Shown: one piece after another, positions 2,991-49,021 of the stretch
Layout: the number at the start of each line of letters is the position of its first letter
How positions within the stretch are numbered: position 1 is the first letter of the stretch
Origin: Candidatus Nanoarchaeia archaeon
GTDB lineage: Archaea; Nanobdellota; Nanobdellia; Woesearchaeales; JACPBV01
Assembly: GCA_028279655.1 (NCBI GenBank)
Contig: JANQNH010000018.1
Coordinates: 1-64,000, forward strand
Reading direction: 5' to 3'
Length of the DNA: 64,000 bases
Position numbers and translations under genes: made by a program
The notes under the pieces: generated by a model
What the model saw: only the letters and a program-made list of their open reading frames with translations
What the model was told of the DNA's origin: nothing
The model's database searches: none

Positions 2991-4739
2991 ATGAAGAATA
3001 AACTTATGATCATATTGGGGATTTTGCTGCTTTTTGTGCACGCTGTTGCAGCAGATGTAAGTGTAGAGTTAGGAGAACCTTATATCAATGTTGAGAGTTT
3101 CTCTGAAGTTAGGTTTAAGGCCCACTCAGACTATTATGATATCTGTTCCCTGGATGAGACTATAATCCCTGTAGTTGTGAGGAATAATAATGATTTTACA
3201 GATATGTTCACCTTTAAGGTAAATAGGGATTATGCTTCTTTGCCTACATCCAGCGCATTTTTGGGAGAAGGGAAGAGTGCAATACTTCCTCTGATATTGA
3301 GCCCTCCAATAGATGTTGAGGATAATACTTCTGTAATGCTTGATATCATAACAAAGAGGGAAGGCCTTAAAAGGAGCCTGGTAATCAAAACAAACATCAA
3401 GAAGTGTTACGAGTTTAATCTTACGATTGATAAGGAAAATGAGGAGATATGTGGCTGTGATGAAGCTATGTACAGGGTAATGCTTTCCAATGAGGGTGAG
3501 CAGGAAGATACTTTTGATCTTAAACTTGATGTGCCTGAATGGGTTTTTACTAACACTTCTGATTCTGTAAAACTCTTTGATGGGCAGAGAAAGGAGATGT
3601 CCCTGCTTGCAGTCCCTGACTGCGAGGAAAAAGGTAATTATGATGTTGTTATAGAGGCTATTTCTGATAAGAGCAATGTTGTTCTTAGGGACAGTATAGA
3701 GCTTAAGGTAATGCATCAAAAGGAATGTTATAATACAATCATCGATGTTGATGATGTTCGTATAGACTACTTTGGAAAGAACATTCCAGTCACGCTGAAG
3801 AACAAGGGTTCTAAGGATATGGGTTATTCCCTGATTGCAGAAGGCGCTTCGTGGTTTTCACTCAGCCAGACCAATTTTAGTATCGATTCCGGTGAAGAGA
3901 AGACTATAAATCTTGCACTTTTCCCAGGAGAAGATGTTGTTGAAGGAGAATATACTATTGATATAAAGGCAGAGGCAGCAGGCAGGGTGTTTGAGGAATC
4001 AGTTATTGTTAAACTTAGGGGCAAGGCTTCTGGACTAGGCAAGTTTGGATTTTATCTTAATTATTTCAAATATTATATACTGGTGGGGGTTGTTCTGCTT
4101 TTTGTTATCCTGGTTTTAATTGTCCTGATCAAGAATCGGATGAAGGATAAGCCTAAGGTCAAGAAGGAGACTGAAGAAAAGGAAGTTAAGAAGGTTCCTA
4201 AGGTTGAGAAGAAAGAGACTAAAAAGGTTAGTGAGAAGGTTGTGAAGGAAAGTCCCAGAAATGGAAGGAAGCTTAGGCTTTTTGAATATATCTATCTTAT
4301 CCTTGTTGTAATCCTCTTCCTGGCTGTTATTATCTACTCTATCTATAAATTCTCTGGTGTATCTTCTCTTCTAATCCAGGGTATTATTGCATATGGCTGG
4401 TATATTGTTATTGGTATAGTGGTTTTGGCTCTACTGATCTTTATCCTGGTCAAGAGTAAAGGAAAGAAAGGCAAGGGTAAGGCTACAAAGAAGGCTAAAG
4501 TTTCAAAGAACGTTAAGGCTGCAAGGAAAGCCAAGAATACCAAGAAGCTAAGGAATATAGGGATAATAATCCTTGGCCTTATAATACTAAGTGGAATAGT
4601 CTATTCATTCGCTTATTTTAACCTGGTCAGTTACGTCAGGGATTCTCTTGTTGTTTACTATCCTTATGTCTTGATGGGGATAGGAATACTGGTAATATTG
4701 ATACTCATACTTAACTTTCATACCAAGAAGATCTCATAG
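2991..4739 (+). CDS. Membrane-anchored surface protein with CARDB-like ectodomain and polytopic C-terminus
   Basis: 582 residues: signal peptide (1-21), then an extracytoplasmic region of COG1470/CARDB-like repeats to ~350, then about five transmembrane helices (roughly 356-378, 432-452, 462-486, 522-545, 555-577). Two Lys-rich cytoplasmic loops contain KKETEEKEVKK and KGKKGKGKATKKAK. The ectodomain has spaced cysteines that could form disulfides. The gene follows another surface-protein gene in the same orientation with its own GGGGGG ribosome binding site. Its 3' end overlaps the convergent permease gene by 22 bp. The Lys-rich loops might contact nucleic acid or acidic partners inside the cell, but that is speculative. 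Confidence 0.8.
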   Translation: MKNKLMIILGILLLFVHAVAADVSVELGEPYINVESFSEVRFKAHSDYYDICSLDETIIPVVVRNNNDFTDMFTFKVNRDYASLPTSSAFLGEGKSAILPLILSPPIDVEDNTSVMLDIITKREGLKRSLVIKTNIKKCYEFNLTIDKENEEICGCDEAMYRVMLSNEGEQEDTFDLKLDVPEWVFTNTSDSVKLFDGQRKEMSLLAVPDCEEKGNYDVVIEAISDKSNVVLRDSIELKVMHQKECYNTIIDVDDVRIDYFGKNIPVTLKNKGSKDMGYSLIAEGASWFSLSQTNFSIDSGEEKTINLALFPGEDVVEGEYTIDIKAEAAGRVFEESVIVKLRGKASGLGKFGFYLNYFKYYILVGVVLLFVILVLIVLIKNRMKDKPKVKKETEEKEVKKVPKVEKKETKKVSEKVVKESPRNGRKLRLFEYIYLILVVILFLAVIIYSIYKFSGVSSLLIQGIIAYGWYIVIGIVVLALLIFILVKSKGKKGKGKATKKAKVSKNVKAARKAKNTKKLRNIGIIILGLIILSGIVYSFAYFNLVSYVRDSLVVYYPYVLMGIGILVILILILNFHTKKIS

Positions 4740-5869
4740 AGTTTTAATACTATCCCAAGAATCATCATAACTATCAGTATCAGTCCTAATATATTATTAG
4801 GTATTGCGTATTCTGGTTTTCTTTTCCCAGTTTTTCTTGCTTTCCACCATATACACAGGATCAGGATCCCTGTCAGTGATCCCCCTATAGAACCTGTTAT
4901 GTCCAACACCTGGAAGAAGGCATTTTTCATATTGGAGTTCATTATCATCAAGGCTGCTGCCAAGGGAATAAAGCAGGAGAACATAGGAGGTGTAATGTCC
5001 ATCAGTTTGTAGTCAAAACGATACATCTCAGTAAGAGCAAACGCAATAGCTATGAAGGAGGTTGTCATTGTGAGTATTCCAAGGATGGTTCCCATAACCA
5101 TGATCTTTGCTCCCAGGATACTGGCAAGACCAAGTATCGCTCCATCGGTTGTATTGGCTCCTGAGATGCCTACAACAACCAGTGCGAACAGTATATATAC
5201 TATCATGGGTATTACGGATCCGATTATTATTGCTTTCTTAAGGTGTTTCTTGTTCTTCAATTCCTCGTTCATCTCTGGTATTGCCGGAGTTGCTAGGAAT
5301 GCAAAGAAGACCACACCATAGGGTATGAAAAGGTTTTTGTAGCTGAATGAAGTAAGGTTAGCCGGGTCTATGTGGGGTATAGCGAAGATTGCCAGAAGGG
5401 TGATTATAGAGATGATCGCAAGGACCATATAAAATTCGCTTCTCTCTACTATCTTTATCCCTTCAAAGACTATGACAAAGGATAAGGTGGTGAATAGAAT
5501 AGAGTATATGATTGGTGTTCCACCAAGCGAGGGAGATAGCAGGGCATCTAGGAACTCTCCTGTTTTCATTATGTAAGCGATCATGGCACCATGCGTGAAT
5601 ATTATAAATGATGCTGTCATCAACATATTTCCTATATTATTCAGATACAATCTTGCATAGCCTGTCAACTGATGGATCTCTTTTGTCCTTAGGCTTACCT
5701 CACCCAGATATAGGTTTAGGATCAAAATCATGATTCCCAGGACCACTATATTTACAATGCCTGTAATGAATCCTGCTCTTGCTATTACAAAAGGAATCCC
5801 AAGGATACCTGCCCCTATTGTGAGCCCAATCAATGTTGAGATTGCAGAGAATACGTGTTTTTCAGGCAT
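4718..5869 (-). CDS. Amino-acid permease, aromatic/hydroxy amino acid (SdaC/Trp-Tyr permease-like)
   Basis: 383 residues with about 11 hydrophobic helices. The N-terminal TIGAGILGIPFVIARAGF segment (residues ~15-33) is the substrate and sodium-site helix typical of the APC-superfamily Trp/Tyr permease branch (COG0814). It probably imports an amino acid by cation symport across the cell membrane. Substrate cannot be read from the sequence; the adjacent tRNA-Trp is a coincidence that proves nothing. It is convergent with the upstream surface-protein gene (22 bp overlap). Confidence 0.8.
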   Translation of the reverse strand: MPEKHVFSAISTLIGLTIGAGILGIPFVIARAGFITGIVNIVVLGIMILILNLYLGEVSLRTKEIHQLTGYARLYLNNIGNMLMTASFIIFTHGAMIAYIMKTGEFLDALLSPSLGGTPIIYSILFTTLSFVIVFEGIKIVERSEFYMVLAIISIITLLAIFAIPHIDPANLTSFSYKNLFIPYGVVFFAFLATPAIPEMNEELKNKKHLKKAIIIGSVIPMIVYILFALVVVGISGANTTDGAILGLASILGAKIMVMGTILGILTMTTSFIAIAFALTEMYRFDYKLMDITPPMFSCFIPLAAALMIMNSNMKNAFFQVLDITGSIGGSLTGILILCIWWKARKTGKRKPEYAIPNNILGLILIVMMILGIVLKLYEIFLV

Positions 5870-5967
5870 GGATTTTTTTTGACAAAGGAGTTATTTAAAG
5901 TTATTGGTAAGAGAAAAGAATGAGGACGTGAGAATTTTTTTAATTTAAGTAATCTTTTAAAGATAAA

Positions 5968-6090
5968 TGGGGACGTGAGGATTTGAACCCCAATCAAACG
6001 GTATAGCCCATGTTTAAGTCATCGGGAAGTTCCCTCATCGCTCCAACATGACTGGAGCCGTCTATACTAGCCAGGTTATACTACGTCCCC
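5968..6090 (-). tRNA. tRNA-Trp (CCA) with a 49-nt intron at position 37/38
   Basis: The acceptor stem GGGGACG/CGTCCCC, discriminator A (5968), T-arm with TTCAAAT loop, D-arm and anticodon stem GACGG/CCGTT are all visible. The loop reads CT-CCA-G before the intron and A after it, giving anticodon CCA. 5' exon 6090-6052, intron 6051-6003, 3' exon 6002-5968; mature length 74 nt. The intron opens with a CATGTT/AACATG helix, as expected inside a bulge-helix-bulge substrate, and holds a small GGGA/TCCC hairpin. Position 37/38 is the usual archaeal tRNA-Trp intron site. CCA is not encoded. Confidence 0.93.
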
Positions 6091-6133
6091 TTGATAAGCT
6101 TAGAATTGGTATTGGTTATTTAAAATTGTCGGT

Positions 6134-6481
6134 TTAAAAACTAATGATGTCGCCTAATCTTGTATCTGTCCTATCTATGGTTTTGTCTGGAAGTTCCATT
6201 ATGTATCTTGCTGGTTTTTTTGCAATCAATATCCTGAACGGTTTGAAGTTTTTCCTCATCTGAACAACTTTCTTGTTTCTATCAAGGTATATAACATCTA
6301 TGGGGAAGAGGACGAAGAACATATGCAGGGACACTATCTTTTCCTTTTCGAATATGAACAACAATGTCTTGCTCTTTCTTGAAAACATAAGGCCAAGGGC
6401 TTTTGAGAAAGAGCTGCTGCACCTGATTGCTCTTTTTGAAAGAATCCTGTTATTTCTTCTGTTCTTAATCATGATGATCAT
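6134..6481 (-). CDS. DUF192 family protein
   Basis: 115 residues. The C-terminal 90 residues match the DUF192 pattern: a central hydrophobic MFFVLFPIDVIYLD strand pair, then KKPARYIMELP and a Gly-Asp-Ile ending. DUF192 proteins are small beta-rich proteins of unknown function, common in archaea. The first ~20 residues are basic with no clear signal peptide; translation may start at the internal Met at 6472. It lies downstream of the tRNA-Trp locus in reading direction terms and appears monocistronic. Confidence 0.75.
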   Translation of the reverse strand: MIIMIKNRRNNRILSKRAIRCSSSFSKALGLMFSRKSKTLLFIFEKEKIVSLHMFFVLFPIDVIYLDRNKKVVQMRKNFKPFRILIAKKPARYIMELPDKTIDRTDTRLGDIISF

Positions 6482-6606
6482 TTTATTCCTTAGTTTAAAT
6501 AATTTACTTTTATCTCTTTCATCACTTTCAAGAAGTCTCTACTCATGCAAAAGATTTAAATATTAACAATATTCCATTATCTTTCAACGTTGGGTTAATC
6601 GAAACA

Positions 6607-6617
6607 TTTATATATAT
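6607..6617 (+). promoter_or_regulatory. TATA box for the giant surface-protein gene
   Basis: A strong AT stretch (TTATATATAT) lies about 135 nt before the ATG at 6745. Start would fall near 6634, giving an unusually long leader of about 110 nt, unlike the leaderless pattern of many neighbours. Confidence 0.55.
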
Positions 6618-6687
6618 GTTTTAAAAATATTAGGTTGGTGGGTTTAGTCTATCAATCATGGGGATTAATTAGTAAATCGAAATTGGG

Positions 6688-6709
6688 GGATAAAAGTCTT
6701 CTTTTATCC
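6688..6709 (+). promoter_or_regulatory. Perfect 9-bp hairpin in the leader of the 905-aa gene
   Basis: GGATAAAAG-TCTT-CTTTTATCC is a perfect stem with a 4-nt loop, 35 nt before the start codon. It could stabilise the mRNA or modulate translation. No thymine tract follows directly, so it is not a standard terminator. Confidence 0.5.
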
Positions 6710-6744
6710 GTTACTATATAAAAAATAAAAACGAGGTTGGTAAA

Positions 6745-9462
6745 ATGAAGGTGTTATCTAAAAAAGAGGGTGGTTTCTATAACAATAGGATTTTGTTTGG
6801 TTCTGTTTTTGTGTTGATGGCAATTTTGCTGATGGTTTTTGTCTACGCGATAGAGGGAGTGACTGTATCTTTGGATAAACCTATAAACACCTACAATTCC
6901 TCGAGCTTAACTGTTTATTTCAACTGTTCTCCAATAGCGAGCCTTAATCCTGTTAATGTTACAAATGTTACTTTGTGGCATAATTTTTCAGGAACTTATG
7001 CTGCCAACGAGACGTCCAGTTCAGCTACTACTCTTAACGGCACAAATGTTTCTTTTACCAAGACTATTGCTGCTGATGGAATCTATGTCTGGAATTGTGT
7101 TGCATGTGAAAGGAATGCAACCAATGGATCTGTGTGTAATTCTTCAACATCAAATTATACCTTAACTGCAGATGCTACTGCACCATCGATTAAGACTGTT
7201 AGATTATTAACTTCTCTAACTAAAAAAGGAAGTTCTCAGAACGTGACTGTTAATGTTACTGACGTAACTTCAGGAGTTGCTACTGTTACTGTTGACGGTG
7301 TCACACTTACACAAGAGGGCACTGGTGATACATATAGCAGCAGCCTTGTTAATATAAGTGCAAGTCCAATAACAGTAACTGTTACGGATCATGCCGGCAA
7401 TACAGCTACAAACGGTACGGTTACTATTACATTTGATAATACTGCTCCAACTACGACATACGCAAACGACTCTGATATTGACAGTGATGTTTGGTATGGA
7501 AAGGATTTATTGCTTCACCTATCTGCTATAGATACAGGAGGTAGTGTAGCAAATACTACTGAGTATAGAAATGGCACTTCTGGTACATGGAGTACCTGGT
7601 CTGCTAACCTTACATTTAAATCCAATCTTAGTTCAAATACCTTCCAGTTTAGATCCAACGATTCATTGGGTAATGTGGAAGCTTATCAGAGCAGAACCAT
7701 TAAGATTGATCAGACTGCTCCAGTGGTAAACATAGTTTCAATGAGCGCAACAGAAATAGGTCCAAGCCAGACAATTGCTGTTTCAGCTAATATGACTGAT
7801 ACATTATCAGGTCTGAATGTTTCCTTGTTAACTGCATGGCATAATGGTACAGGTGGAAACAACGGAACAAATCAAGTGACCTTAGCCTTACAGAACGGGA
7901 GATATGTTGGAACGATTACAGGACCTAGTTCAGCTGGTTCATATATAGTTACTGTTAATGCTACTGACAGGGCTGTATATTCGAGGAACTCTAACACAGC
8001 AACAACGGCTTTTACAGTCATGAACCTTACGGCTCCAACTATAACCTCTAATGTATCTAATAATACGTATATTACGAACGGAAGCGTTATTGGCTTTACT
8101 GTAGTAGGCGCAAACAATACCTACTACAATACCAGCGAGACTACTGCATATTCTGCACCACAGAGTGTTACTACCAGCACTACCTTGGCTGTTACGGTGA
8201 CGATGAATACAAGCACCAGCATAGAGATCCAGGTACATGCAAATAAGACTGATTCCAATACAACAACCAAATCCTATACATATCTGGTTGATGATGTTAT
8301 TCCACCAATTGCATTTAGTGGACTTACTGCAAACCAGGTTATTAATGGTACGACAAAAATAATCGCAGTATCCTCAGATGCTGGTTCGGGTACGGCATAT
8401 GTTGATTTCTATGATGGATCAGCTAGCGGGGAATTGAGTCTTAGAAAGAGAGATAATTCAACACCATTTACCTATGAAAGGGATACGCTTATCTTAGGTG
8501 ATGGGAACTTTACCTTAAATATCACTGCAGTAGATCATGCAGGGAACGTCAACTCTACAATGATCCATGTTACAGTAAATAACTCTAGACCACAGACACA
8601 AGCAGTTACAGATGGTACTGCTGACTTTGGTGGAACTGGAATCTACGACATGGTACCACAGATAACTGGTCTGAACTCAACAAATGCAGTTGTTACAGTT
8701 GCTAAAGGGGATTCACCTTTTATTTCAGGAAGCACTGATCTTGGTTCCCCTGAGATGTACATAAACATATCAGCAGACACTGCAGCTACTGCAAGGGTAT
8801 ATTTCAGGATACCTACAACTCAGATAACCTTGGCGGATACGACAAATCTTATAGTGTACATGGACCATGACGATGATGGAGCTTATGAGCAGAGAGAATC
8901 AGTTACGTATGTAAACTCTGTTGGCGGTTACTATAATTTCTATTTTGCAACAACCAGTTTTTCAATATTTGCGATTGTTGTGGAAGCTTCATCCCCTAAT
9001 ACTGGTTCAGGTGGAGGCGGAAGTGGAGGTGGAGGAGGTAGTTCAGTGACCAAGCGTTCAATAGCATTTACTACATCAGGAGTTAGTGTTGGATTGAAAG
9101 TAGACGACAAAGCACTGTTTGTATTTAATAAACTTACACAGACTGTAATGCCTACCAAGATATCGGGAGATACGGCAACCTTTAAGGTTATGCCTAGCGG
9201 TGAGGTTGTGGAGCTTACCAAAGGACAGTCAAAGGACATAGATCTTGATGGAGATGGCGTTAGTGATATGAATCTGAAGCTGGATTATGTATCGGGGACT
9301 ACCAAGGCATTCGCAATCATCAAGAAAGCCTATGCATCCAAGAAGGCCCCATCTACAGCTTTTGAGATCATAGATGTTATCAAGGACTTCTATGGCGGGT
9401 CTACGACATATACAGCGTTTGAGTTGATCGATATCATAAGAGCATTTTACGGAGGTACCTAA
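6745..9462 (+). CDS. Giant Ig-like surface protein with Gly-Ser linker and dockerin-like tail
   Basis: 905 residues. One N-terminal hydrophobic segment (about 17-35) serves as signal or anchor. Several tandem Ig-like/bacterial Ig-type beta domains follow, with repeated DxTAPxxxxV openings and NGT/NST sequons suggesting N-glycosylation. A Gly-Ser linker near 755-770 leads to a C-terminal module. That module holds a DLDGDGVSD calcium-binding-like loop (~832-840) and a duplicated helix, TAFEIIDVIKDFYGG and TAFELIDIIRAFYGG, resembling dockerin type repeats. Ribosome binding site GAGGTTGGT. It is separated by one base from the next gene, so the two are probably cotranscribed. A role as adhesin or scaffold is inferred. 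Confidence 0.8.
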   Translation: MKVLSKKEGGFYNNRILFGSVFVLMAILLMVFVYAIEGVTVSLDKPINTYNSSSLTVYFNCSPIASLNPVNVTNVTLWHNFSGTYAANETSSSATTLNGTNVSFTKTIAADGIYVWNCVACERNATNGSVCNSSTSNYTLTADATAPSIKTVRLLTSLTKKGSSQNVTVNVTDVTSGVATVTVDGVTLTQEGTGDTYSSSLVNISASPITVTVTDHAGNTATNGTVTITFDNTAPTTTYANDSDIDSDVWYGKDLLLHLSAIDTGGSVANTTEYRNGTSGTWSTWSANLTFKSNLSSNTFQFRSNDSLGNVEAYQSRTIKIDQTAPVVNIVSMSATEIGPSQTIAVSANMTDTLSGLNVSLLTAWHNGTGGNNGTNQVTLALQNGRYVGTITGPSSAGSYIVTVNATDRAVYSRNSNTATTAFTVMNLTAPTITSNVSNNTYITNGSVIGFTVVGANNTYYNTSETTAYSAPQSVTTSTTLAVTVTMNTSTSIEIQVHANKTDSNTTTKSYTYLVDDVIPPIAFSGLTANQVINGTTKIIAVSSDAGSGTAYVDFYDGSASGELSLRKRDNSTPFTYERDTLILGDGNFTLNITAVDHAGNVNSTMIHVTVNNSRPQTQAVTDGTADFGGTGIYDMVPQITGLNSTNAVVTVAKGDSPFISGSTDLGSPEMYINISADTAATARVYFRIPTTQITLADTTNLIVYMDHDDDGAYEQRESVTYVNSVGGYYNFYFATTSFSIFAIVVEASSPNTGSGGGGSGGGGGSSVTKRSIAFTTSGVSVGLKVDDKALFVFNKLTQTVMPTKISGDTATFKVMPSGEVVELTKGQSKDIDLDGDGVSDMNLKLDYVSGTTKAFAIIKKAYASKKAPSTAFEIIDVIKDFYGGSTTYTAFELIDIIRAFYGGT

Positions 9463-9463
9463 A

Positions 9464-10060
9464 ATGAAGAAACTTTTAATCTACTTGGCGATTTTTGGAT
9501 TGCTAGCTGCTTTTGTTTCTGCAGCTTCAGTGACCAGGAACATGGCATCTACTATTGAACCAGGAAAGGAGCTTTCTGTGTCCTTTAATGTAGCAGATAT
9601 GGAAGTCGGTAAATCTGTTGCGATTAGCGATACGGTTCCATCTCAGTTTAGTATAAGCAGCTGGTCTGTCAGCGGAGCGAACAAAGCGGATGTGACATAT
9701 GAGGTAAACGGCAAGGAGTACAGGTGGGATATCCCTGCACAAGCTACCTCTGTCTCACTTACCTATACAATCCAGGTTCCGTCATCAGCGTCAGGGAGCT
9801 ATTCCTTTAGCGGAATATATATTGCACCACCTGCAAAATTTGATGAGCTAAAGGCAACATTGAATGTAGCAGCTGCACAGCCTGAGGCACCACCTGCTCC
9901 AGCAGAGACACCACCACCAGAGACACCCCCTCCTGCACCTGCTGAGGAAGCACCTGTAGAAGAGGCTGAAGGAAAATCAAATACAGGGGTTATTATCGGA
10001 GTCATACTAGTGATAATTATTGTAGTGGCCTTTGTATTGATAAGCCGGAAGAAGAAGTAG
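9464..10060 (+). CDS. Small membrane-anchored surface protein partner
   Basis: 198 residues: signal peptide (1-20), a beta-rich ectodomain (~21-125), a Pro-Glu-Ala-rich stalk (~128-165) and one C-terminal transmembrane helix (~172-193) ending in RKKK. The stalk probably spans the cell envelope. The ATG follows the upstream stop codon by one base, so the pair is an operon. The small protein may be the membrane receptor for the dockerin-like tail of its neighbour (a cohesin analogue), but no sequence similarity to cohesin is obvious by eye. Confidence 0.75.
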   Translation: MKKLLIYLAIFGLLAAFVSAASVTRNMASTIEPGKELSVSFNVADMEVGKSVAISDTVPSQFSISSWSVSGANKADVTYEVNGKEYRWDIPAQATSVSLTYTIQVPSSASGSYSFSGIYIAPPAKFDELKATLNVAAAQPEAPPAPAETPPPETPPPAPAEEAPVEEAEGKSNTGVIIGVILVIIIVVAFVLISRKKK

Positions 10061-10085
10061 ATCTTCAGATCTATTTTTATTTTTC
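10058..10085 (+). terminator. Hairpin plus T-tract terminator
   Basis: TAGATCT-tc-AGATCTA overlaps the stop codon of the preceding gene and is followed by a T-rich run. It ends the surface-protein operon just before the convergent MEMO gene. Confidence 0.65.
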
Positions 10086-10096
10086 TTATTCTTTTT

Positions 10097-10963
10097 TTAT
10101 TCTATAGATATTGCACCATAACCTACTGCAGATGTGTAGTCATCAGTAATATCTCCAGAGGTGTAATAATTCAATAGATGCGCTTTTTTTGCCTTAAGTA
10201 TCTTACAAGCAGTTATTATCGTTGCGATTGGCATCCTCCCGCAAATGGTGGCCTCGGTTTTTTTGATATATTCAAGGAATTCCCTTGCATCCAGGTTTTT
10301 GATGTGTTCTATGGCCCCTTTATCCAGCTCATACATGCTTTCTTTTACATTCTCTTTGAAAGGAAAGTAACCATAGTTAATCCCATAATGGGTGAAGTCT
10401 GAGGATGCAATTATTATAGCTTTTTTCTTTGTTTGTTCTATTGTTTTAGCTATTGCCTCTGCTATCATTTCGTAATTTTTGTCCTCGGATATTATTATTG
10501 GAGCGATCCTTAGCATATGCAAGTAATCTTTGCTGGCAAACTGGAGGAAGGGGAGCTGCACCTCTATAGAATGCTCATTGGCATGGGCCTGCTCATCCTG
10601 TTTTAGGCCTGAATTTGCCATAAATACCTTCTGGAAGTCTTGGTCTGTCTTTATGGTTCCAATCGGGGTTTCCCAATCCTCTAATGAGACACAAGAATGG
10701 AGCCCTGAGTGAGACAGTCCAAACATTATATAGACATCTGCTGGTTTGCTCTCTGCTATCTCTTTGTAAGCCCAGGCTGCTCCTGGACCCGAAAACTGAT
10801 AGCCTGCGTGAGGAGCGATTATACCAAGAATCTCTTTTGTCCTTTTTTTTACAGGTAATGCTCCTGGACCATATTCAGAGTGAAAGGAATCATCTATCTG
10901 ATTGCTTAACTCTTCGAAATTGTCATGGTAGAACATCCCAGCAACTATTGGTTTTCTTGCCAT
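10097..10963 (-). CDS. MEMO1 family protein (AmmeMemoRadiSam system protein B)
   Basis: 288 residues, typical family length. Conserved segments in order: PIVAGMFYHDN at the N-terminus, IIAPHAGYQFSG (~48-59), FGLSHSG (~101), HSIEVQLPFL (~150) and SDFTHYG (~193). These place conserved His residues as in the MEMO/extradiol-dioxygenase-like fold. The family is non-haem-iron-dioxygenase-like, often found beside AMMECR1 and radical SAM genes; neither partner is visible here. The biochemical role is not established. The start ATG is at 10961-10963. Confidence 0.9.
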   Translation of the reverse strand: MARKPIVAGMFYHDNFEELSNQIDDSFHSEYGPGALPVKKRTKEILGIIAPHAGYQFSGPGAAWAYKEIAESKPADVYIMFGLSHSGLHSCVSLEDWETPIGTIKTDQDFQKVFMANSGLKQDEQAHANEHSIEVQLPFLQFASKDYLHMLRIAPIIISEDKNYEMIAEAIAKTIEQTKKKAIIIASSDFTHYGINYGYFPFKENVKESMYELDKGAIEHIKNLDAREFLEYIKKTEATICGRMPIATIITACKILKAKKAHLLNYYTSGDITDDYTSAVGYGAISIE

Positions 10964-11025
10964 ACTAATAATTAAGTTAGGGAGATATTAAAATCTTATG
11001 ATTTTTATTGATACAGGGGTATCCA

Positions 11026-12447
11026 TTAGTATCTGTAAAACTCAGGCTTATACGGACCTTCTACCTTAACCCCGATGTAGTCTGCCTGTTCTTTTGTGAG
11101 TTCTGTCAGTTTTGCCCCTAGCTTTTCAAGATGCAGTCTTGCAACTTCTTCGTCCAGTTCTTTAGGAAGCATGTATACCCCTATCTTATGCTCCTTTGTC
11201 CAAAGTTCTATCTGAGCAAGGGTCTGGTTGGTAAATGAGTTACTCATCACGAAACTTGGGTGGCCTGTTGCACAAGAAAGGTTAATAAGGCGGCCTTTGG
11301 CTAACATGTATATCGAATGTCCGTCCGGGAAGGTGTATCTGTCTACAGGGCATTCGCTTCCTTTTATCTCTTCTTTCTTTATTCCAGGCCAGTTATCCAG
11401 CTGAGAGACCTGTATTTCATTATCAAAGTGGCCTATGTTGCATACGATTGCCTGGTCTTTCATCTTGCTCATGTGTTCTGCTGTTATGATGTCACAGTTT
11501 CCGGTTGTGGTAACATAGATATCTGCGTAAGGCAGGGCATCCTCTACAGTACATACCTGGTATCCTGCCATGCATGCCTGCAAGGCACATATGGGGTCTA
11601 TCTCAGATACCATCACCTTTGCTTTTTCATTGCCTAAAGACTCTGCGCTCCCTTTTCCAACATCTCCGAAACCACAGACCATCACGGTCTTGCCTGATAA
11701 GAGTATGTCCATTGCTCTTTTTATACCGTCGGTAAGGCTATGCCTGCAGCCATATACATTGTCAAACTTTGATTTTGTGACAGAATCGTTGACATTGATC
11801 GCAGGGAACAACAGTTTTCCATCTTCCATCATCTGGTACAGCCTGTGTACTCCTGTTGTTGTCTCTTCTGAAACCCCCTTTATCTCTTTAGATATTCTTG
11901 TCCACCTCTCTTTGTCGCCTTTGTTTATCTCTTTCAGGGCTTTCATAAGCTCACGAAGGTCTTCTCCTTCTTTACTATAGTCTTTTTCTAATATTGACGG
12001 ATCCTTTTCTGCTTCCACCCCTTTGTGAATCATCAATGTGGCGTCTCCCCCGTCGTCTACTATAAGTGTCGGGCCTTTTCCATCTCCAAAGTCCAATGCC
12101 CTATCTGTGCAGTGCCAGTACTCTTCTAATGATTCTCCTTTCCATGCGAATACAGGGATGCCTGCTTTTGCTATAGCTGCAGCAGCATGGTCCTGCGTGG
12201 AGAATATGTTGCATGATGCCCATCTTACCTGTGCACCAAGTTCGACTAATGTCTCAATCAATACTGCTGTCTGGATCGTCATGTGTAATGAGCCTGTAAT
12301 CCTTGCTCCTTCAAGCGGTTTTTTGGGTCCGTATTTCTTTCTTGTTGCCATCAAGCCAGGCATCTCCTTCTCTGCTATGCCTATCTCCTTTCTTCCGAAT
12401 TCAGCTAGATTTAGGTCCTTAACTTCATAATTATCTGTCTTGTCCAT
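11026..12447 (-). CDS. ahcY: S-adenosylhomocysteine hydrolase
   Basis: 473 residues. It hydrolyses S-adenosylhomocysteine to adenosine and homocysteine with tightly bound NAD, in the cytosolic methyl cycle. Visible are the [18 protein letters not shown] substrate segment, the NAD-binding [14 protein letters not shown] (~250-263) and the C-terminal YKPEFYRY. The protein has the ~40-residue insertion (about 150-195, rich in Lys/Glu) and the extended C-terminus of the large bacterial/plant type. The usual archaeal enzyme is shorter (~410-420 aa), so lateral acquisition from bacteria is likely. A PfkB kinase nearby (15957-16943) could remove adenosine. A GGTGAT ribosome binding site precedes the ATG. 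Confidence 0.95.
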
Positions 12448-12508
12448 ATTATCACCAGTATATATTAATATGGGATTATTTATATATTTTTCTTAATTTT
12501 TTATCTGA

Positions 12509-12541
12509 TTTGTCCAATTTTTTCTTATTTTTATGGACAAA
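12509..12541. promoter_or_regulatory. Inverted repeat, candidate Lrp operator
   Basis: TTTGTCCA (12509-12516) and TGGACAAA (12534-12541) form an exact 8-bp inverted repeat with a 17-bp AT-rich spacer. It sits between the divergent ahcY and Lrp-type genes, just upstream of the latter's TATA box. Autoregulation is plausible. Confidence 0.5.
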
Positions 12542-12550
12542 TAACGAAAG

Positions 12551-12560
12551 ATTTAAATAT
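12551..12560 (+). promoter_or_regulatory. TATA box, leaderless promoter
   Basis: ATTTAAATAT is centred about 28 nt before the ATG at 12583, so transcription should begin at or next to the start codon. Confidence 0.6.
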
Positions 12561-12582
12561 AAGTGGGACACTGATTATTCTA

Positions 12583-13008
12583 ATGGATGTTGACAAGAAG
12601 GATCTTGCAATCATCGATGTTTTGAAGGGCAATTCCAGGCTATCTATCAGGGACGTTGCAAGGTCTGCTAAGTTAAGGCCAAGTACAGTGCATCAGAGGA
12701 TAACGAGACTAAAAGAGAGAGGGGTTATCGAGCAGTTTACCTTAAAGTTAAACAACAAGGCTGTGGGGGAAGGATTCATTGTTTTCATGCTGGTAAAGAC
12801 AAAGCCTTCGGCTGTTCTCGAAAGGATAGTAAATAACAAGCATGTAAAGGAGTTTTTTGGGGTAACAGGGGAATACGACCTGTTGCTGAAACTGAAGTTC
12901 AGAGATGTTGAAGAGTTCAATGATTTTGTGATTCGATTCAGAAAGGAGCAGTCGATCCAAACTACCCTGACTATGGTCGTGACGGCTGATGTTAAGGAGG
13001 AAATTTAA
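12583..13008 (+). CDS. Lrp/AsnC family transcriptional regulator
   Basis: 141 residues, the normal length of single-unit Lrp/AsnC proteins. N-terminal winged helix-turn-helix (about 5-55, with LSIRDVARSAKLRPSTVHQRI) and a C-terminal ligand-binding RAM domain (about 65-140, containing GEYDLLLKLKF). These proteins act as oligomers that sense amino acids. The gene is divergent from ahcY, with a shared inverted repeat between them, suggesting control of methionine/SAM metabolism or of itself. The stop is followed by an AAAACA/TGTTTT hairpin and a T-rich tract at about 13043-13100. Confidence 0.92.
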   Translation: MDVDKKDLAIIDVLKGNSRLSIRDVARSAKLRPSTVHQRITRLKERGVIEQFTLKLNNKAVGEGFIVFMLVKTKPSAVLERIVNNKHVKEFFGVTGEYDLLLKLKFRDVEEFNDFVIRFRKEQSIQTTLTMVVTADVKEEI

Positions 13009-44075: not shown

Positions 44076-44083
44076 TGCTTTGC
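44076..44083. repeat. Target site duplication, left copy
   Basis: TGCTTTGC directly abuts the left inverted repeat and is repeated exactly at 49014-49021. Eight bases is the usual IS6-family duplication length. Confidence 0.9.
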
Positions 44084-44096
44084 GGTTGTGTTGCGT
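44084..44096 (+). repeat. Left terminal inverted repeat
   Basis: GGTTGTGTTGCGT, exact complement of 49001-49013. A second, degenerate end-like sequence (GGTGCGTTAAGGGTGAT) follows at 44117-44133 and resembles the inner part of the right end. Confidence 0.9.
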
Positions 44097-44149
44097 AAAC
44101 GGGATATAGACTTAGTGGTGCGTTAAGGGTGATACAGATTCATACTTCA

Positions 44150-44308
44150 TTATGTTTTTCTTAGGTCTGCAAGTGTATCCTCCTTTAATTCAATCTCTCT
44201 TTCGTGTCCGTCAGACCTCATACATTTTAGGATATATTTCCCATTACTAACTCTATGTATATGAAACGCATTTGCATTACAATCTGGGCAATTAATGTTT
44301 TTCTCCAT
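44150..44308 (-). CDS. Small zinc-ribbon protein of the transposon
   Basis: 52 residues from the ATG at 44308, chosen because GGAGGA lies 7-8 nt upstream and the previous gene ends 4 bp before it. CPDC (7-10) and a later single Cys-Met-Arg segment give a possible partial zinc ribbon. Function unknown. Confidence 0.6.
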   Translation of the reverse strand: MEKNINCPDCNANAFHIHRVSNGKYILKCMRSDGHEREIELKEDTLADLRKT

Positions 44309-44312
44309 AATA

Positions 44313-44687
44313 TCAATCCTCCTTAGGAATCTCTTTATCCTTCCAATAATCATATACTTTGTTTAATTCTTTTACATGGAATAACTGTTCATCTTCACCT
44401 CTTTCCAAAACTCCTATCTCCCTAGCTAAATTAAAAAAACCATCACTGGAAATTCTAGGGTTTTTGTTTTTTAAAACTACTACTGCTGTAAGCATAGGTC
44501 TTTTTTCGTCTTTATCTTTTTCGTATTTATTGATTTCATCCAAAACCTTACATAATTCAATTTCTCGTTCATCTGGTTTGTCTAAGTTAAGACCACATAT
44601 ATCCGCTACTTCTTCATAATACACCAAACCCCTATTTTTAGCAACTTCTATGAGCCTTTTGTATAGCGTTTTATTAATCATCTGCAA
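44313..44687 (-). CDS. Small accessory protein of the transposon, unknown
   Basis: 124 residues. Helical N-terminus (LYKRLIEVAKNRGLVYYEEVADICGLNL), a central RPMLTAVVVLKNKNP strand and FFNLAREIGVL helix. Similar proteins of unknown function appear, from memory, near restriction or defence genes in bacteria; this cannot be verified here. It lies in a three-gene minus-strand unit with the zinc-ribbon and coiled-coil genes. Confidence 0.6.
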   Translation of the reverse strand: MQMINKTLYKRLIEVAKNRGLVYYEEVADICGLNLDKPDEREIELCKVLDEINKYEKDKDEKRPMLTAVVVLKNKNPRISSDGFFNLAREIGVLERGEDEQLFHVKELNKVYDYWKDKEIPKED

Positions 44688-44699
44688 TACCCAATAAAG

Positions 44700-44927
44700 C
44701 TACTCAAACCCTTTAAAAGAATAATCTAGCAGTAGAGTTAATGTATCATTCATTACTTTCTGTTTTTCTAATATTTCCTTTAGAATAACTTTTATTTCAT
44801 TCTGATAATGGTTTGTTGGGATTGTTTTGTCTAGTTTTGCTATATCTTCGCTTATTCCTTCACTTAGCTTCTTGAGATGGTCTATTCTGTCTAATACTCC
44901 CTGTTTTTCTAATGTTTGCGGTGACAT
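44700..44927 (-). CDS. Small coiled-coil protein of the transposon
   Basis: 75 residues, strongly heptad-like (LDRIDHLKKLSEGISEDIAKLDK and ILKEILEKQKVMNDTL). A TATA box CTATAAAAATT at about 44956-44966 lies ~30 nt before the ATG, so it probably begins a leaderless three-gene transcript. No family recognised. Confidence 0.6.
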   Translation of the reverse strand: MSPQTLEKQGVLDRIDHLKKLSEGISEDIAKLDKTIPTNHYQNEIKVILKEILEKQKVMNDTLTLLLDYSFKGFE

Positions 44928-44955
44928 ATAGCTATAGGAATATCCTGAGAATTTT

Positions 44956-44966
44956 TATAGTTTACG
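44956..44966 (-). promoter_or_regulatory. TATA box for the small accessory operon
   Basis: On the minus strand CTATAAAAATT is centred about 33 nt before the ATG at 44927, consistent with a leaderless or very short leader. Confidence 0.45.
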
Positions 44967-45033
44967 GAAGAATGGTGTTGGTAAGTCTTAGGGTGTTAAG
45001 TATCGGCTGGTAAGGCAAGGGTGATAGAAATTT

Positions 45034-47286
45034 TTAAATATCCTTAAATTTTTCTCTAAATTCTTCGATTGATTTTTTATCAAACAATTTAAAGTTTACT
45101 TTGAAGTTACCTAACTTAAAGGGGGTTATTTGTCTTCCGTATTTAAATCTCCACCTTTCCCTACGAACTACACATGCAATATAAAACAATTCTTCTATGG
45201 ACAATTGTTTTTTAGGAATTAATGTTAAGCAATTATCATCTACACAACACTCTTTTAATTGAACAAATGCGTATCCTACACTCCCAGTACTTGGTACTGT
45301 AATAATCTTTTCTTTATAAATTGGATTTATATTAAAATAACCATAACAACCGTTTTGTTTACTCTGAGAAGATATTAATAGTGTATTCCCTTTCTTTAAA
45401 TCTTCTTTATTATGGTACTCTCTTTGTCCATAATCAATCTCAAATAAATCACTCAAATACTCGGTATCTTTATGTTTAGGTAAGTTGATATTAGTGACGC
45501 TATCTTTCACTTTGCTTAATTTATCTTCATGTATGATTTTAAAAGCATAATAATATCTTATTAATTGTTTAACTTCTAATTCTATATCCCCCCACTTTTC
45601 ACCATCTAAATAAGATTCTGGTGATAAATCAAAATCTTGGTCTTTGTAATTAATTTTTTTGTAACAAGAAAATGCAGGTTTAGTTATTTTACTTATAAAA
45701 TTATTTCCAGCTTCTTCTATCTGTCCATCTTTTACTTTTATTCTTTTTCCTTTTTTCTCTATAAACCCATCCTCTGTAATTTTACAGAAAAATGTTTTTT
45801 CTTCTTTTTGAGGTATATGTGCTTTTATAAAAACTAATGCTGTTGTTATACTTACAGGATAAAACGTTTTATGTGGGAGACTAAATACTGCTTCCAGAGT
45901 ATGTTTGCCTATTATGTTTTCCCTCCATTTTTTACATTCTCCGCTTTGTACTAAAATTGAAAAAGGAATAACTGAAATAAGTTTTCCGCCAACTTCTAAA
46001 CAATTTAGAGCATGGTCTATAAACTCAGTTTCAATAGGGTCGTCTCCATCTGTTTGAAATGGAGGATTCATCAATACTTTAGTAAATTGTTTTTCTTCTG
46101 GATACTCAAAACAATTCTTAAAAATGATGTTATTTTTTCCATCTCCTCTAAAAATCATATTGACAACACCTAATGGATATGCAGATGTTGAAGTATCATT
46201 ACCGAATATTTGACTATCACCTATCTTTTTTATTAGATGCTTATTATAATTAACTAATTCCCTAAATCTATTGAAAGCAGACACCAAAAAACCACCAGTA
46301 CCGCATGTAGGGTCATATATTTTATCTTTGGAAGTTATACCTATAATATCAGTACAAAAATCAGTAATATGTCTTGGTGTAAATACAATTCCTAATTGCT
46401 TATTATCTCCACCATATTTTAAGAACACTTCATAAAATGTACCAAGTACATCATATCCAGATTTCATTAGTGCATTAATATTTACTTTCTTTAATTCATG
46501 AATTACTAAAGGAATTGCTTTAGCCAGTAGTTTATCATGTTTATTTAAAGATAACATAGAATATATTTGGTCTGTTTTTTTACACTCGTTCAAAGCTTCT
46601 TTGACTCTGGTGTTTATGTCTTGAATAACTAAATTAATATCCAAAGAAAAATTTCCCTGATACATAGCTAAAATGATTGAAGCGATAACTTTTGCCCTAG
46701 ATGCTTCCTCTACCTTATGTTTATGTAGTATCTTATTTATTTTATCTGACCTCAGATATAAATAATCTAGGCTAGGGATAGCTACATCCAGAGAGGGTTT
46801 TTCATTCTTTAGGCATTGTTCTAATTCTTCATAAGTAATTATTTGAGTTAATTTCTGTTCGTGAGACTCGATTATTTTCCATACATTATTATCAAGATAG
46901 TAATTTTCTACTGTTACCCCTTCTTCTTCATTACCTGCTACCCCTATTAATATTTTTATATCAAATCCATCTATTTTATTTAAGAAACTAACATAATGTT
47001 TTGCATCTTTAATCGCTTCTTTTATATCAGTCTTATCTGGTTTTGTTTCAATTATAGCACTTACAACTTTATCATTATTCACTAGGAGGAAATCTAGAAA
47101 TCCACTACATTTACCGCTTTTTGAAGCATTTTGTAATGCTTCTTTTATTCGTGAATCATATTTTTGTGCTTCTCCCTCTTGAAGTAAATTTCCCCCTTTC
47201 TGGGGTTTTTTAATATTCCATCCTAATTCCTTAAGAGTGTGAGTTACATACATTCTTGCTCTTTTTTCAGAATCCTTTTCTTTCAT
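45034..47286 (-). CDS. Single-chain restriction-methylation-specificity enzyme (type IIG-like)
   Basis: 750 residues from ATG 47286, whose start overlaps the stop of a ribbon-helix-helix gene (ATGA). An apparent 75-residue Asn/Lys-rich N-terminal extension reaching to 47511 is that gene read in the wrong frame. N-terminal nuclease core: D65 (FLDF) and E80-T-K82 (IIETK), PD-(D/E)xK. N6-adenine methylase: motif I DPTCGTGG (325-332), motif IV NPPF (407-410). C-terminal target-recognition domain (~590-750, containing LSDLFEIDYG and LLISSQSKQN). It probably methylates and cuts the same site. Main transposon cargo. Confidence 0.88.
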   Translation of the reverse strand: MKEKDSEKRARMYVTHTLKELGWNIKKPQKGGNLLQEGEAQKYDSRIKEALQNASKSGKCSGFLDFLLVNNDKVVSAIIETKPDKTDIKEAIKDAKHYVSFLNKIDGFDIKILIGVAGNEEEGVTVENYYLDNNVWKIIESHEQKLTQIITYEELEQCLKNEKPSLDVAIPSLDYLYLRSDKINKILHKHKVEEASRAKVIASIILAMYQGNFSLDINLVIQDINTRVKEALNECKKTDQIYSMLSLNKHDKLLAKAIPLVIHELKKVNINALMKSGYDVLGTFYEVFLKYGGDNKQLGIVFTPRHITDFCTDIIGITSKDKIYDPTCGTGGFLVSAFNRFRELVNYNKHLIKKIGDSQIFGNDTSTSAYPLGVVNMIFRGDGKNNIIFKNCFEYPEEKQFTKVLMNPPFQTDGDDPIETEFIDHALNCLEVGGKLISVIPFSILVQSGECKKWRENIIGKHTLEAVFSLPHKTFYPVSITTALVFIKAHIPQKEEKTFFCKITEDGFIEKKGKRIKVKDGQIEEAGNNFISKITKPAFSCYKKINYKDQDFDLSPESYLDGEKWGDIELEVKQLIRYYYAFKIIHEDKLSKVKDSVTNINLPKHKDTEYLSDLFEIDYGQREYHNKEDLKKGNTLLISSQSKQNGCYGYFNINPIYKEKIITVPSTGSVGYAFVQLKECCVDDNCLTLIPKKQLSIEELFYIACVVRRERWRFKYGRQITPFKLGNFKVNFKLFDKKSIEEFREKFKDI

Positions 47287-47435
47287 TGATTTGCCCCTTT
47301 CAATCTCTTTATAGCTTCCACCACCGCTTTTGAACGTGGCAATCCATGATTTTTCTTGCAAAATTCGTCTAGAATCTCTAAGACTTCTTTTTTTAAAGAA
47401 ATTGTTATTCTTTCTATCTCTGTTTCTTTTTCCAT
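47283..47435 (-). CDS. Ribbon-helix-helix regulator hidden in another frame upstream of the restriction gene
   Basis: 50 residues, begins MEKETEIERITISLKKEVL and ends in IKRLKGANQ. It has the RHH layout: a strand (ERITISL), helix 1 (KKEVLEILDEFCKKN), the turn (GLPRSKA) and helix 2 (VVEAIKRL). An AAGGAA site precedes the ATG. Its TGA overlaps the restriction enzyme ATG. A perfect palindrome lies about 70 nt upstream. RHH proteins of this size act as dimeric repressors, so it probably plays the controller role for the restriction gene. Confidence 0.82.
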   Translation of the reverse strand: MEKETEIERITISLKKEVLEILDEFCKKNHGLPRSKAVVEAIKRLKGANQ

Positions 47436-47502
47436 TACTTTCCTTTTTCGGAGAATTAGTATAAAAGGTTTTCGTATTTTTCTTATTGTTATGATTATTC
47501 AT

Positions 47503-47526
47503 ACTATTCATAAAAATATGAATAGT
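47503..47526. promoter_or_regulatory. Perfect 10-4-10 palindrome, candidate RHH operator
   Basis: ACTATTCATA (47503-47512) and TATGAATAGT (47517-47526) are exact complements around AAAA. It sits at the promoter of the RHH-restriction operon, next to an AT-rich TATA-like stretch (minus-strand TTAAATATTA near 47527-47536). A further half-site ATTCATA lies directly before it at 47497. Confidence 0.72.
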
Positions 47527-47544
47527 AATATTTAATACTTCCTA

Positions 47545-47676
47545 TTATTTCTTTAATCCTTTCTTAATAAGCTCATTTACTGCCTGATTATTATTCTTCA
47601 ATCCTTTATCAATCTTATACTTTAATACCTCGTTCCAGAGCTTATCTTCACAATCTAATAATAGTTTCTTTGCCAT
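47545..47676 (-). CDS. Second tiny ribbon-helix-helix-like protein
   Basis: 43 residues beginning MAKKLLLDCEDKLWNEVLKYK and ending LIKKGLKK. Strand (KKLLLDC), helix (EDKLWNEVLKYKIDKG), Asn-rich turn (KNNN) and helix (QAVNELIKKGL) match a minimal RHH fold. A minus-strand TATA box (CTTTATATATAAG) about 28 nt upstream suggests a leaderless transcript. It is divergent from the transposase, and TTAA-N6-TTAA boxes lie between them, so it may repress transposition. Confidence 0.65.
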   Translation of the reverse strand: MAKKLLLDCEDKLWNEVLKYKIDKGLKNNNQAVNELIKKGLKK

Positions 47677-47680
47677 ATCA

Positions 47681-47811
47681 TTAATAGTTATTAATACTTA
47701 TATATAAAGGTTTCTATACTCCAATATATATTAACGATTATTAATAATCGTTAATAGAAAACTTTAAATACTAGCTTTACTTTCTTATTAATAGTTGTTA
47801 ATAAACATTAA
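47681..47811. promoter_or_regulatory. Array of five TTAA-N6-TTAA boxes between RHH gene and transposase
   Basis: Boxes start at 47681, 47731, 47741, 47788 and 47798; each is 14 bp. The second and third overlap to form one perfect 24-bp palindrome (47731-47754), and the last two also overlap. Offsets are 50, 10, 47 and 10 bp, near whole helical turns. The region holds both divergent promoters (minus TATA 47698-47711, plus TTTAAATAC near 47763-47771). Confidence 0.65.
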
Positions 47812-47825
47812 TAAGGTGATAAAAA

Positions 47826-48989
47826 ATGAAATATACAAACAATAAAAACCCATCAGAAAAGATGAGGGAAGTTAGAGGTTATGCAATAATCTCAAAAGGA
47901 GATACCCCAAAGAAGATAGGCAAAAATAAGTTTTCAATACCTTCGCAAAGCGGTAAGGGAAACTATACAATAACTATGGAAAAAAGACCAATATGCACCT
48001 GCCCTGACTTTCAGAATAGGGGAGTAGATTGTAAGCATATCCACGCAGTAAGGTTTTACCTTGACTTCAACAATAAAGTAAAGATAGAGAATAAGGGCAT
48101 AGTTACTGAAAAACAAGCCTGTCCTTACTGCAAAAGCATCCACACTGTAGGTTGCGGTAAAAGGCACACTAAAAGCGGACAGAAGCAGAGATACTTATGT
48201 AATGATTGTAAAAGGAAATTCATAGAGAATAAAGACTATGAGAGATATAAAGGCAACAGCAAGACAACTTCTCTTATTTTAGACCTTTACTTCAAGGGCA
48301 TATCATTAAGGGGCATTAAAGACCACCTAAAACAGTTTTACAGCCTTAGCTTAGACCATAGCAATATCCTAAGAAGGATTCATAAGTTTAGCAGAGTAAT
48401 CAACGATTATGTCCAGACATTAAAGCCAGAAGTTAAAGACATATGGAATCATGACGAAATGAAGATACAGGCGGGGGGTAAATGGCTTTGGCTATGGCAA
48501 ATAATGGATAAGGAAACGAAGTATCTAATAACAACGCAAGTCTCAACAAACGCTTATCAACCTATTAGCGACAAATTCTTTAAGCAAGCAAAAGAACAGG
48601 TAAATGAAGAGCCAACTTATATAATCACAGACGGAAGGCACAGCTTAAAGAACAGCATTAAGAGAGGTATGCCTTCTACAAGCCATGTAAGGTTAGTTAG
48701 TTTAACTGAAAAGAGGCAAAACAACCAAAACATAGAGAGGTTAAATGGAACTGTAAGGGACAGAGTTAAGCCTATGCGTGGTTTTGATAACGTTGAAACT
48801 GCTGAGATAATGACCTCTGCTTTCAGGAACTATTATAACTTCATAAAGCCCCATAACTCAATAGGCGGTTCAACTCCTGCTGAAATGGCAGGAATAGGGG
48901 TTGAAAACAGCAAGAATAAATGGGATGAATTGCTTAAAAGGAGTTTTGAGCATACCCCGCAACGCACCAAAGAAGCAGTTTTAGGGTAA
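47826..48989 (+). CDS. IS6/IS240-type DDE transposase with SWIM zinc finger
   Basis: 387 residues, longer than the ~230 aa of ordinary IS6 transposases. N-terminus: SWIM-type finger C57-x-C59...C69-x-H71 (CTCPDF...CKHIH). Next a zinc ribbon C99-x2-C102...C125-x2-C128. An HTH region (~145-185) precedes the RNase-H-like DDE core: D210 (WNHDEMKI), D269 (ITDGRHS), E304 (NIERLNG), with the family D-E spacing of ~34. AAGGTGAT lies 5 nt before the ATG. The gene ends 24 bp from the right end of the element. Confidence 0.92.
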   Translation: MKYTNNKNPSEKMREVRGYAIISKGDTPKKIGKNKFSIPSQSGKGNYTITMEKRPICTCPDFQNRGVDCKHIHAVRFYLDFNNKVKIENKGIVTEKQACPYCKSIHTVGCGKRHTKSGQKQRYLCNDCKRKFIENKDYERYKGNSKTTSLILDLYFKGISLRGIKDHLKQFYSLSLDHSNILRRIHKFSRVINDYVQTLKPEVKDIWNHDEMKIQAGGKWLWLWQIMDKETKYLITTQVSTNAYQPISDKFFKQAKEQVNEEPTYIITDGRHSLKNSIKRGMPSTSHVRLVSLTEKRQNNQNIERLNGTVRDRVKPMRGFDNVETAEIMTSAFRNYYNFIKPHNSIGGSTPAEMAGIGVENSKNKWDELLKRSFEHTPQRTKEAVLG

Positions 48990-49000
48990 ATCACCCTTTA

Positions 49001-49013
49001 ACGCAACACAACC
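49001..49013 (-). repeat. Right terminal inverted repeat
   Basis: ACGCAACACAACC, exact complement of 44084-44096; the inner sequence (TTAAAGGGTGAT read inward) also resembles the left inner region. Confidence 0.9.
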
Positions 49014-49021
49014 TGCTTTGC
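49014..49021. repeat. Target site duplication, right copy
   Basis: TGCTTTGC, identical to 44076-44083. Joining the flanks would recreate an uninterrupted intergenic region between the histone and flavoprotein genes. Confidence 0.9.

Follow-up and report, generated by a model that had tools for sequence, protein, structure and literature searches.

A restriction-modification cassette inside what is very probably a unit transposon of an archaeal IS6-like lineage

Positions 44084–49013 of the window (the whole stretch of 64,000 nucleotides that was analysed), which comes from a Woesearchaeota-like archaeon, hold a complete unit of 4,930 bp. Its features, from left to right, are as follows.

44076..44083, no strand: left copy of the target-site duplication, TGCTTTGC, from the repeat/duplication scan
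44084..44103, plus: left terminal inverted repeat, with end box 1
44117..44133, plus: second end box of the left end (GGTGCGTTAAGGGTGAT), its spacing matching that in other family members
44150..44353, minus: small gene, 67 aa, Cys-rich (CPDC...C, zinc-ribbon-like), no family match
44313..44687, minus: small gene, 124 aa, no family match
44700..44927, minus: small gene, 75 aa, no convincing family match
44974..45023, plus: relic (degenerate) left end of the L091/L094 type, ~10 bp from the end of the restriction-methylase stop codon
45034..47286, minus: type IIG-like single-chain restriction-methylase, 750 aa, from domain and PADLOC matches
47283..47435, minus: RHH (CopG-like) regulator, 50 aa, with an ATGA overlap with the restriction-methylase start
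47545..47676, minus: second RHH-like protein, 43 aa, divergent from the transposase, identified by reading without a family search
47723..47809, no strand: AT-rich palindromes in the gap between the second RHH gene and the transposase, a candidate operator/promoter region (function inferred)
47826..48989, plus: transposase, 387 aa, with SWIM zinc finger, zinc ribbon and DDE triad
48951..48968, minus: second end box of the right end, within the 3' coding end of the transposase
48994..49013, minus: right terminal inverted repeat, the distance from transposase stop to end being 24 bp
49014..49021, no strand: right copy of the target-site duplication, TGCTTTGC, from the same scan

The terminal inverted repeats, 20 bp each, are complementary at 18/20 positions (90%), including all of the first 13 (GGTTGTGTTGCGT), and the exact 8-bp duplication abuts both outer ends. 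In a joint terminal-repeat and duplication scan covering ~10 kb, this outer pair scored 38.0, compared with 22.0 for the best pair in the reversed sequence used as the null. The end box is doubled at each end: box 1 lies in the terminal repeat and a second copy lies further inside. Across the 2.07-Mb host genome, a full-length transposase of this type occurs once and this type of end pair once, with no second pair. Four two-mismatch matches to the end pattern in the host genome were no better than the control level, and the surroundings of a two-mismatch pair on another contig (C24) read as ordinary sequence. An Rfam search returned no RNA family. The transposase and restriction-modification (RM) genes are enclosed by one end pair and one duplication, which meets the criterion for a unit transposon or transporter IS; the criterion for an IS6 pseudo-compound element (two direct IS copies around cargo) is failed.

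The transposase carries a SWIM zinc finger (C57 C59 C69 H71), a zinc ribbon of the IS1/IS1595 type (C99 C102 C125 C128) and a DDE triad (D210 D269 E304), and the triad and both zinc motifs are invariant in 17 aligned sequences. It matches DDE_Tnp_IS240, the IS240/IS6 catalytic domain, well above the cut-off (E 4e-17). The IS6 transposase model NF033587 is its best-matching model, though its 119.6 bits fall 5 bits below the curated cut-off of 125; the IS6 model matches 17/17 aligned transposases (best E 8.5e-38). A structure prediction reached moderate confidence (pLDDT 73), and a fold search with it returned DDE transposases and retroviral integrases, ISCth4 first; neither this search nor the solved structures gave anything beyond the DDE/RNase-H fold. 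The ends fit the IS6 pattern of a repeat starting GG with G at position 7, and a duplication of 8 bp is the IS6-family length; about half of the relatives described below have 9 bp, and the terminal repeats of several do not start with GG, as was already noted for archaeal forms (PMC6807381). The IS6 size criterion (~0.8 kb, up to ~1.8 kb, transposase only) is failed by a 4.93-kb element with cargo.

The restriction-methylase has a PD-(D/E)xK-like N-terminus (FLDFLL...ETK, with D...ExK at residues 63–82) that gave a weak model match to HSDR_N (0.009), an N6-methylase part (N6_Mtase 1.6e-39; DPTCGTGG at 325, NPPF at 407) and one Methylase_S recognition domain (2.9e-6). Its best PADLOC match is REase_MTase_IIG (E 2.4e-47). 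Nuclease, N6-methylase and target-recognition domains all lie in one chain, which meets the domain criterion for type IIG. We saw no essential difference from the type IIG enzymes of PADLOC's REase_MTase_IIG, which combine a nuclease-like N-terminus, an N6 methylase and a recognition domain in a single chain; the likeness is one of sequence, and activity is inferred. The gene is intact, with all motifs present. Its start is very likely the ATG at 47286 (750 aa) rather than 47511: the sequence ahead of it belongs to the RHH gene (47283–47435), which is read in another frame and whose stop overlaps this start as ATGA.

A reading made from the sequence alone had described this region as a complete IS6-type transposon carrying its own RM system, and overall that reading is supported. 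Its exact 13-bp repeats bounding 4,930 bp held, extending to 20 bp (18/20), as did its exact 8-bp duplication, its single DDE transposase, its content of a single-chain restriction-methylase, two regulators and three small genes, and its claim that no second end adjoins the transposase, so that the cargo lies inside one unit. Its statement that IS6 elements normally hold just a transposase agrees with the IS6 review (PMC7986276). The start at 47511 was corrected to 47286, and 'IS6-type' is only approximate: the model score is under the cut-off, and whether archaeal and zinc-finger forms belong to the family is disputed. Harmer and Hall (2019) held that archaeal and long zinc-finger forms should be removed from IS6 (PMC6807381).

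The site was compared with a genome of another genus in the same family (G003). At its orthologous histone/FMN-reductase locus the 4.9 kb are absent. The histone gene and its promoter are conserved until 13 bp before the left end of the element, and homology picks up again 257 bp later, in the FMN-reductase C-terminus. This genome carries, however, a solo right-type end of ~60 bp (GGTTGTGTTGCGTTAAAGGGTG..., with its second box), which is of the window element's end type but in the opposite orientation (L200, G003:C92, oriented 1665–1725). Its distance is likewise 13 bp, upstream of the histone TATA region, and it has the look of a remnant left there by a different insertion. The locus favours insertion of the window element, yet it is not a clean empty site. 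The histone-upstream site is a possible insertion hot spot.

The sequence-only reading had proposed a search for further archaeal copies with cargo. We ran it from the transposase alone, over the phylum and 84,980 species genomes. Single-sequence scans of genome contigs and viral contigs gave no matches; an alignment-based scan did. The relatives found by the searches as a whole belong to the Woese-, Pace-, Micr- and further DPANN archaea and to Methanoregula, Methanocellaceae, Methanomethyliaceae, Bathyarchaeota, Nitrososphaeria and Thermoplasmata. We delimited 63 elements in archaea, the window's included: 40 of the SWIM type and 23 of a non-SWIM type with a shorter transposase. These are the delimitable subset (many SWIM loci gave no boundaries), and most come from draft or metagenome assemblies. 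They measure 1.8–8.0 kb (median 3.7), 62 of the 63 have an exact 8- or 9-bp duplication, and all 63 contain at least 0.87 kb of non-transposase DNA, with no transposase-only element among them. In 24/40 SWIM elements the transposase stop lies 8–26 bp from the right end. Most elements share one end anatomy: the terminal repeat contains box 1, and another box follows about 28–33 bp inside the left end or about 45 bp inside the right end. Both the window element and its close relative L064 fit it; the latter (~2.7 kb; transposase 67–68% identical to the window's) has the same end type, GGTTCTGGTGCGT, with other cargo and its own exact duplication, CCGTTTCA.

The host genome holds a second cargo transposon (L155, G000:C31:4500-14000, oriented 3252–7352), with a short IS6-like transposase, TGAGCTGTTAAGTTAGCG ends and an exact TCATTAGA duplication. 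Its cargo proteins are of 261, 241, 124 and 106 aa. Pfam gave no match for the three searched (261, 241 and 124 aa), and the 124- and 106-aa proteins have relatives in element L174 (55% identity). On a contig filed as Parcubacteria (L062), a transposase 70% identical to the window's is accompanied by family ends at 669 and 4800, without a duplication; this locus is rearranged or misbinned, and transfer from archaea to CPR remains a possible alternative to misbinning. For L069/L046 a first boundary pair (CTCTTCTTTG...) was discarded because it lacked the family end box, the likelier right end being CTCTCTGTCGTA. One element in Methanomethyliaceae (L078, oriented 6377–12968) has 45-bp perfect terminal repeats and a IIG-like RM homologue, and appears recently mobile. 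A ~68-aa zinc-ribbon gene (53–86% identical) lies divergent from the transposase in L057, L058, L098 and L127; present whatever the RM cargo, it may be a core component of the chassis.

RM or DNA-methylase genes are cargo in at least 19 delimited elements. Their kinds are unrelated (IIG-like, type III, m5C, EcoRI-like, ApaLI, HinP1I, MvaI/BcnI, MjaI and D12), and RM cargo spans at least seven unrelated enzyme families. Cargo was assigned by Pfam, except in L102, L180 and L181, where it was assigned by identity.

IIG-like: the window element, L047
N6: L056
Type III: L055, L059, L102 (the last by 91–95% identity to L055)
m5C: L098
N4/N6: L057, L058, L133 (L133 also ApaLI)
D12 with HNH: L094
EcoRI-like with HNH: L115, L127 (GmrSD in L127)
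Short-type elements: L153 HinP1I; L154 MvaI/BcnI; L166 D12
Short-type elements, MjaI: L177 and its close kin L180 (by identity)
Short-type element, RM: L181 (by identity to L058)

Six further elements (L074, L078, L086, L087, L191, L192) are likely RM carriers. Some RM cargo appears broken: it is split in L056 and L057, and L115 has split HNH/GmrSD parts. The family is not confined to RM genes, because many cargos are of other kinds, including RelA/SpoT, Fic, PIN, an ABC transporter, LD-carboxypeptidase and unknowns. The transporter operon (BPD_transp_1, ABC_tran, NMT1/THI5-like), a metabolic cargo, lies in a short-type element with an exact 9-bp duplication (L164, oriented 4673–8546). A 372-aa protein without family match and a ~90-aa partner (34–41% identity) occur together in L102 and L191, across SWIM and short-type elements, and could be an unrecognised conflict cassette.

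In 14 genomes picked by their transposase and not by RM content, 7/46 N6 or N4/N6 methylase loci lie inside delimited elements, which make up 0.42% of the DNA; 0.19 would be expected. The enrichment has P about 1e-9, or 2.5e-8 with the window left out, on the assumption that methylase loci are placed at random.

Cassettes move between transposon chassis. A type III system (91–95% aa) is common to L055 and L102, whose ends differ and whose transposases have 70% identity. L102 and L115, with transposases 89% identical and the left 61 bp in common, carry unrelated cargo. An RM pair 88–94% identical in amino acids occurs on both a SWIM element (L058) and a non-SWIM one (L181), and L154 and L195 have chassis 82% identical in nucleotides with an MvaI-type RM system in one and a peptidase in the other. 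Placing the RM label on the transposase tree takes 11 changes, of which at least 9 are forced.

The window element itself contains a trace of another element type. Positions 44974–45023 align without gaps to ends of the L091/L094 type with a score of 28, where shuffled sequences reached at most 13. This relic has the orientation of a left end, adjoins the 3' end of the RM gene and lies ~2.8 kb from the transposase; no partner right end or duplication was found. Since a relic left end of another element type sits beside it, the RM gene likely came from a sister transposon with that end type, though the capture route is inferred. The outer 0.9 kb with the small genes is inferred to be part of the present chassis.

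One could argue that the transposase came in as a simple insertion of ~1.3 kb next to an RM locus that is immobile and has nothing to do with it, and that the outer repeats arose by chance. A typical IS6 element is ~0.8 kb long and encodes nothing but its transposase (PMC7986276), and the degenerate left-end-like sequence at 44974–45023 is a second end inside the unit. However, the sequence around the transposase start contains no end of the type that bounds the window element. At the outer pair both end boxes are present and the duplication is exact, and the 63 delimited elements are built on the same plan. The cryptic second end pair around the transposase that the sequence-only reading had named as a refutation was looked for and not found; the relic is not one, because it sits beside the RM gene and not the transposase, without partner or duplication. 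This alternative is all but excluded. Another explanation, that the unit is compound and the RM gene a decaying passenger, trapped by nested insertion and without selective value to the transposon, is favoured by the relic adjoining the gene and by the broken-looking RM genes in L056, L057 and L115. It is unlikely nonetheless: the RM gene in the window is intact and lacks none of its motifs, and RM cargo is enriched and recurs across at least seven unrelated enzyme families.

We conclude that 44084–49013 is very likely (probability about 0.88) a unit transposon of an archaeal IS6-like lineage with an exchangeable cassette, here an RM cassette from a sister element. The boundaries, duplication, domain content, recurrence and cassette exchange are shown by sequence. 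In the proposed mechanism, the constant chassis would consist of a ~60-bp left end, the gene for the SWIM-zinc-finger DDE transposase with its RHH regulator, and the right end, and the cassette slot would lie between the left end and the transposase. The transposase would bind the two boxes at each end, move the whole unit and duplicate 8–9 bp of target. The window's cassette would comprise a coupled operon of the IIG-like restriction-methylase and an RHH regulator of its own, together with the three small genes; its restriction part was probably acquired from an L091/L094-type sister by nested insertion or recombination, leaving the relic left end. Through the cassette, host DNA would be methylated and DNA without this methylation cut, which would protect both host and transposon and make loss costly, and the RHH proteins would regulate the transposase and the RM gene. 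The activities of transposase and enzyme, box binding, regulation, capture route and any defence or addiction benefit are inferred. The sequence-only reading's 'self-mobile' rests on anatomy only, and its 'defence or addiction module' is plausible as an inference. Recent movement is not shown, because the host genome has one copy and there is no second strain.

The RM genes might instead be mainly an addiction module, keeping the transposon by post-segregational killing rather than defending the host against viruses. A stabilising effect of RM systems on mobile DNA is known (PMC4176335), and toxin-like cargo (RelA/SpoT, Fic, PIN) occurs elsewhere in the family. Against this, a IIG single chain couples cutting to methylation, which should make for weaker addiction than separate type II proteins, and functional data are lacking. 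We lean slightly away from this alternative and retain the unit transposon with an exchangeable RM cassette, without assigning it mainly to addiction.

RM genes on mobile DNA and passenger-bearing IS are already known kinds of system; the archaeal family appears to be undescribed, and we found no description of these elements in the open-licence literature searched. One near likeness is to the IS6 zinc-finger clades h/i (ISCbo1, ISTet2; Varani 2021, PMC7986276; PMC6807381), which have in common with it the DDE_Tnp_IS240 domain, a zinc finger N-terminal to the HTH, GG-starting terminal repeats and 8-bp duplications. Setting the present case apart are an extra SWIM finger, a 387-aa transposase, a pair of boxes at each end, duplications of 8 or 9 bp and cargo in every delimited element; described clade h/i elements measure 1.2–1.8 kb. 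The single passenger-bearing IS6 member on record is ISDsp3 (1456 bp, a hypothetical protein), and IS6 members are thought to form cointegrates (PMC7986276), yet here single copies are flanked by a duplication; movement may be by cut-and-paste or through cointegrates. Transporter insertion sequences (tIS) likewise have one transposase and passenger genes between one IS end pair; here there is a whole lineage (63 delimited elements), with multi-gene RM cassettes exchanged between chassis. RM genes travelling with transposable elements are known from mobile RM systems of the Furuta/Kobayashi type (PMC3031569). In the plasmid-borne PaeR7I case, movement was IS-linked and in vivo in E. coli (PMC3031569), whereas in the window the RM genes are enclosed by the ends that belong to a unit transposon. 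IS-like archaeal transposons have been described as one- or two-gene elements (PMC6563490), an archaeal RM survey does not mention transposons (PMC10609329), and a recent survey found RM under-represented in DPANN archaea (PMC12988326).

A bolder reading, which we hold with only slight preference over its negation, is that these elements form an undescribed IS6-like superfamily in archaea, above all the small-celled DPANN groups, that is a main vehicle spreading RM and other conflict genes there, built from a constant chassis (paired-box ends and a zinc-finger transposase) and an exchangeable cassette slot. The chassis could also serve as a genetic tool for archaea. Because the end boxes, the transposase and the cassette junctions are defined, the 'guns for hire' idea of defence genes becomes testable, and transposons with swappable RM cassettes would offer a concrete route for the gain and loss of RM systems in reduced archaeal genomes.
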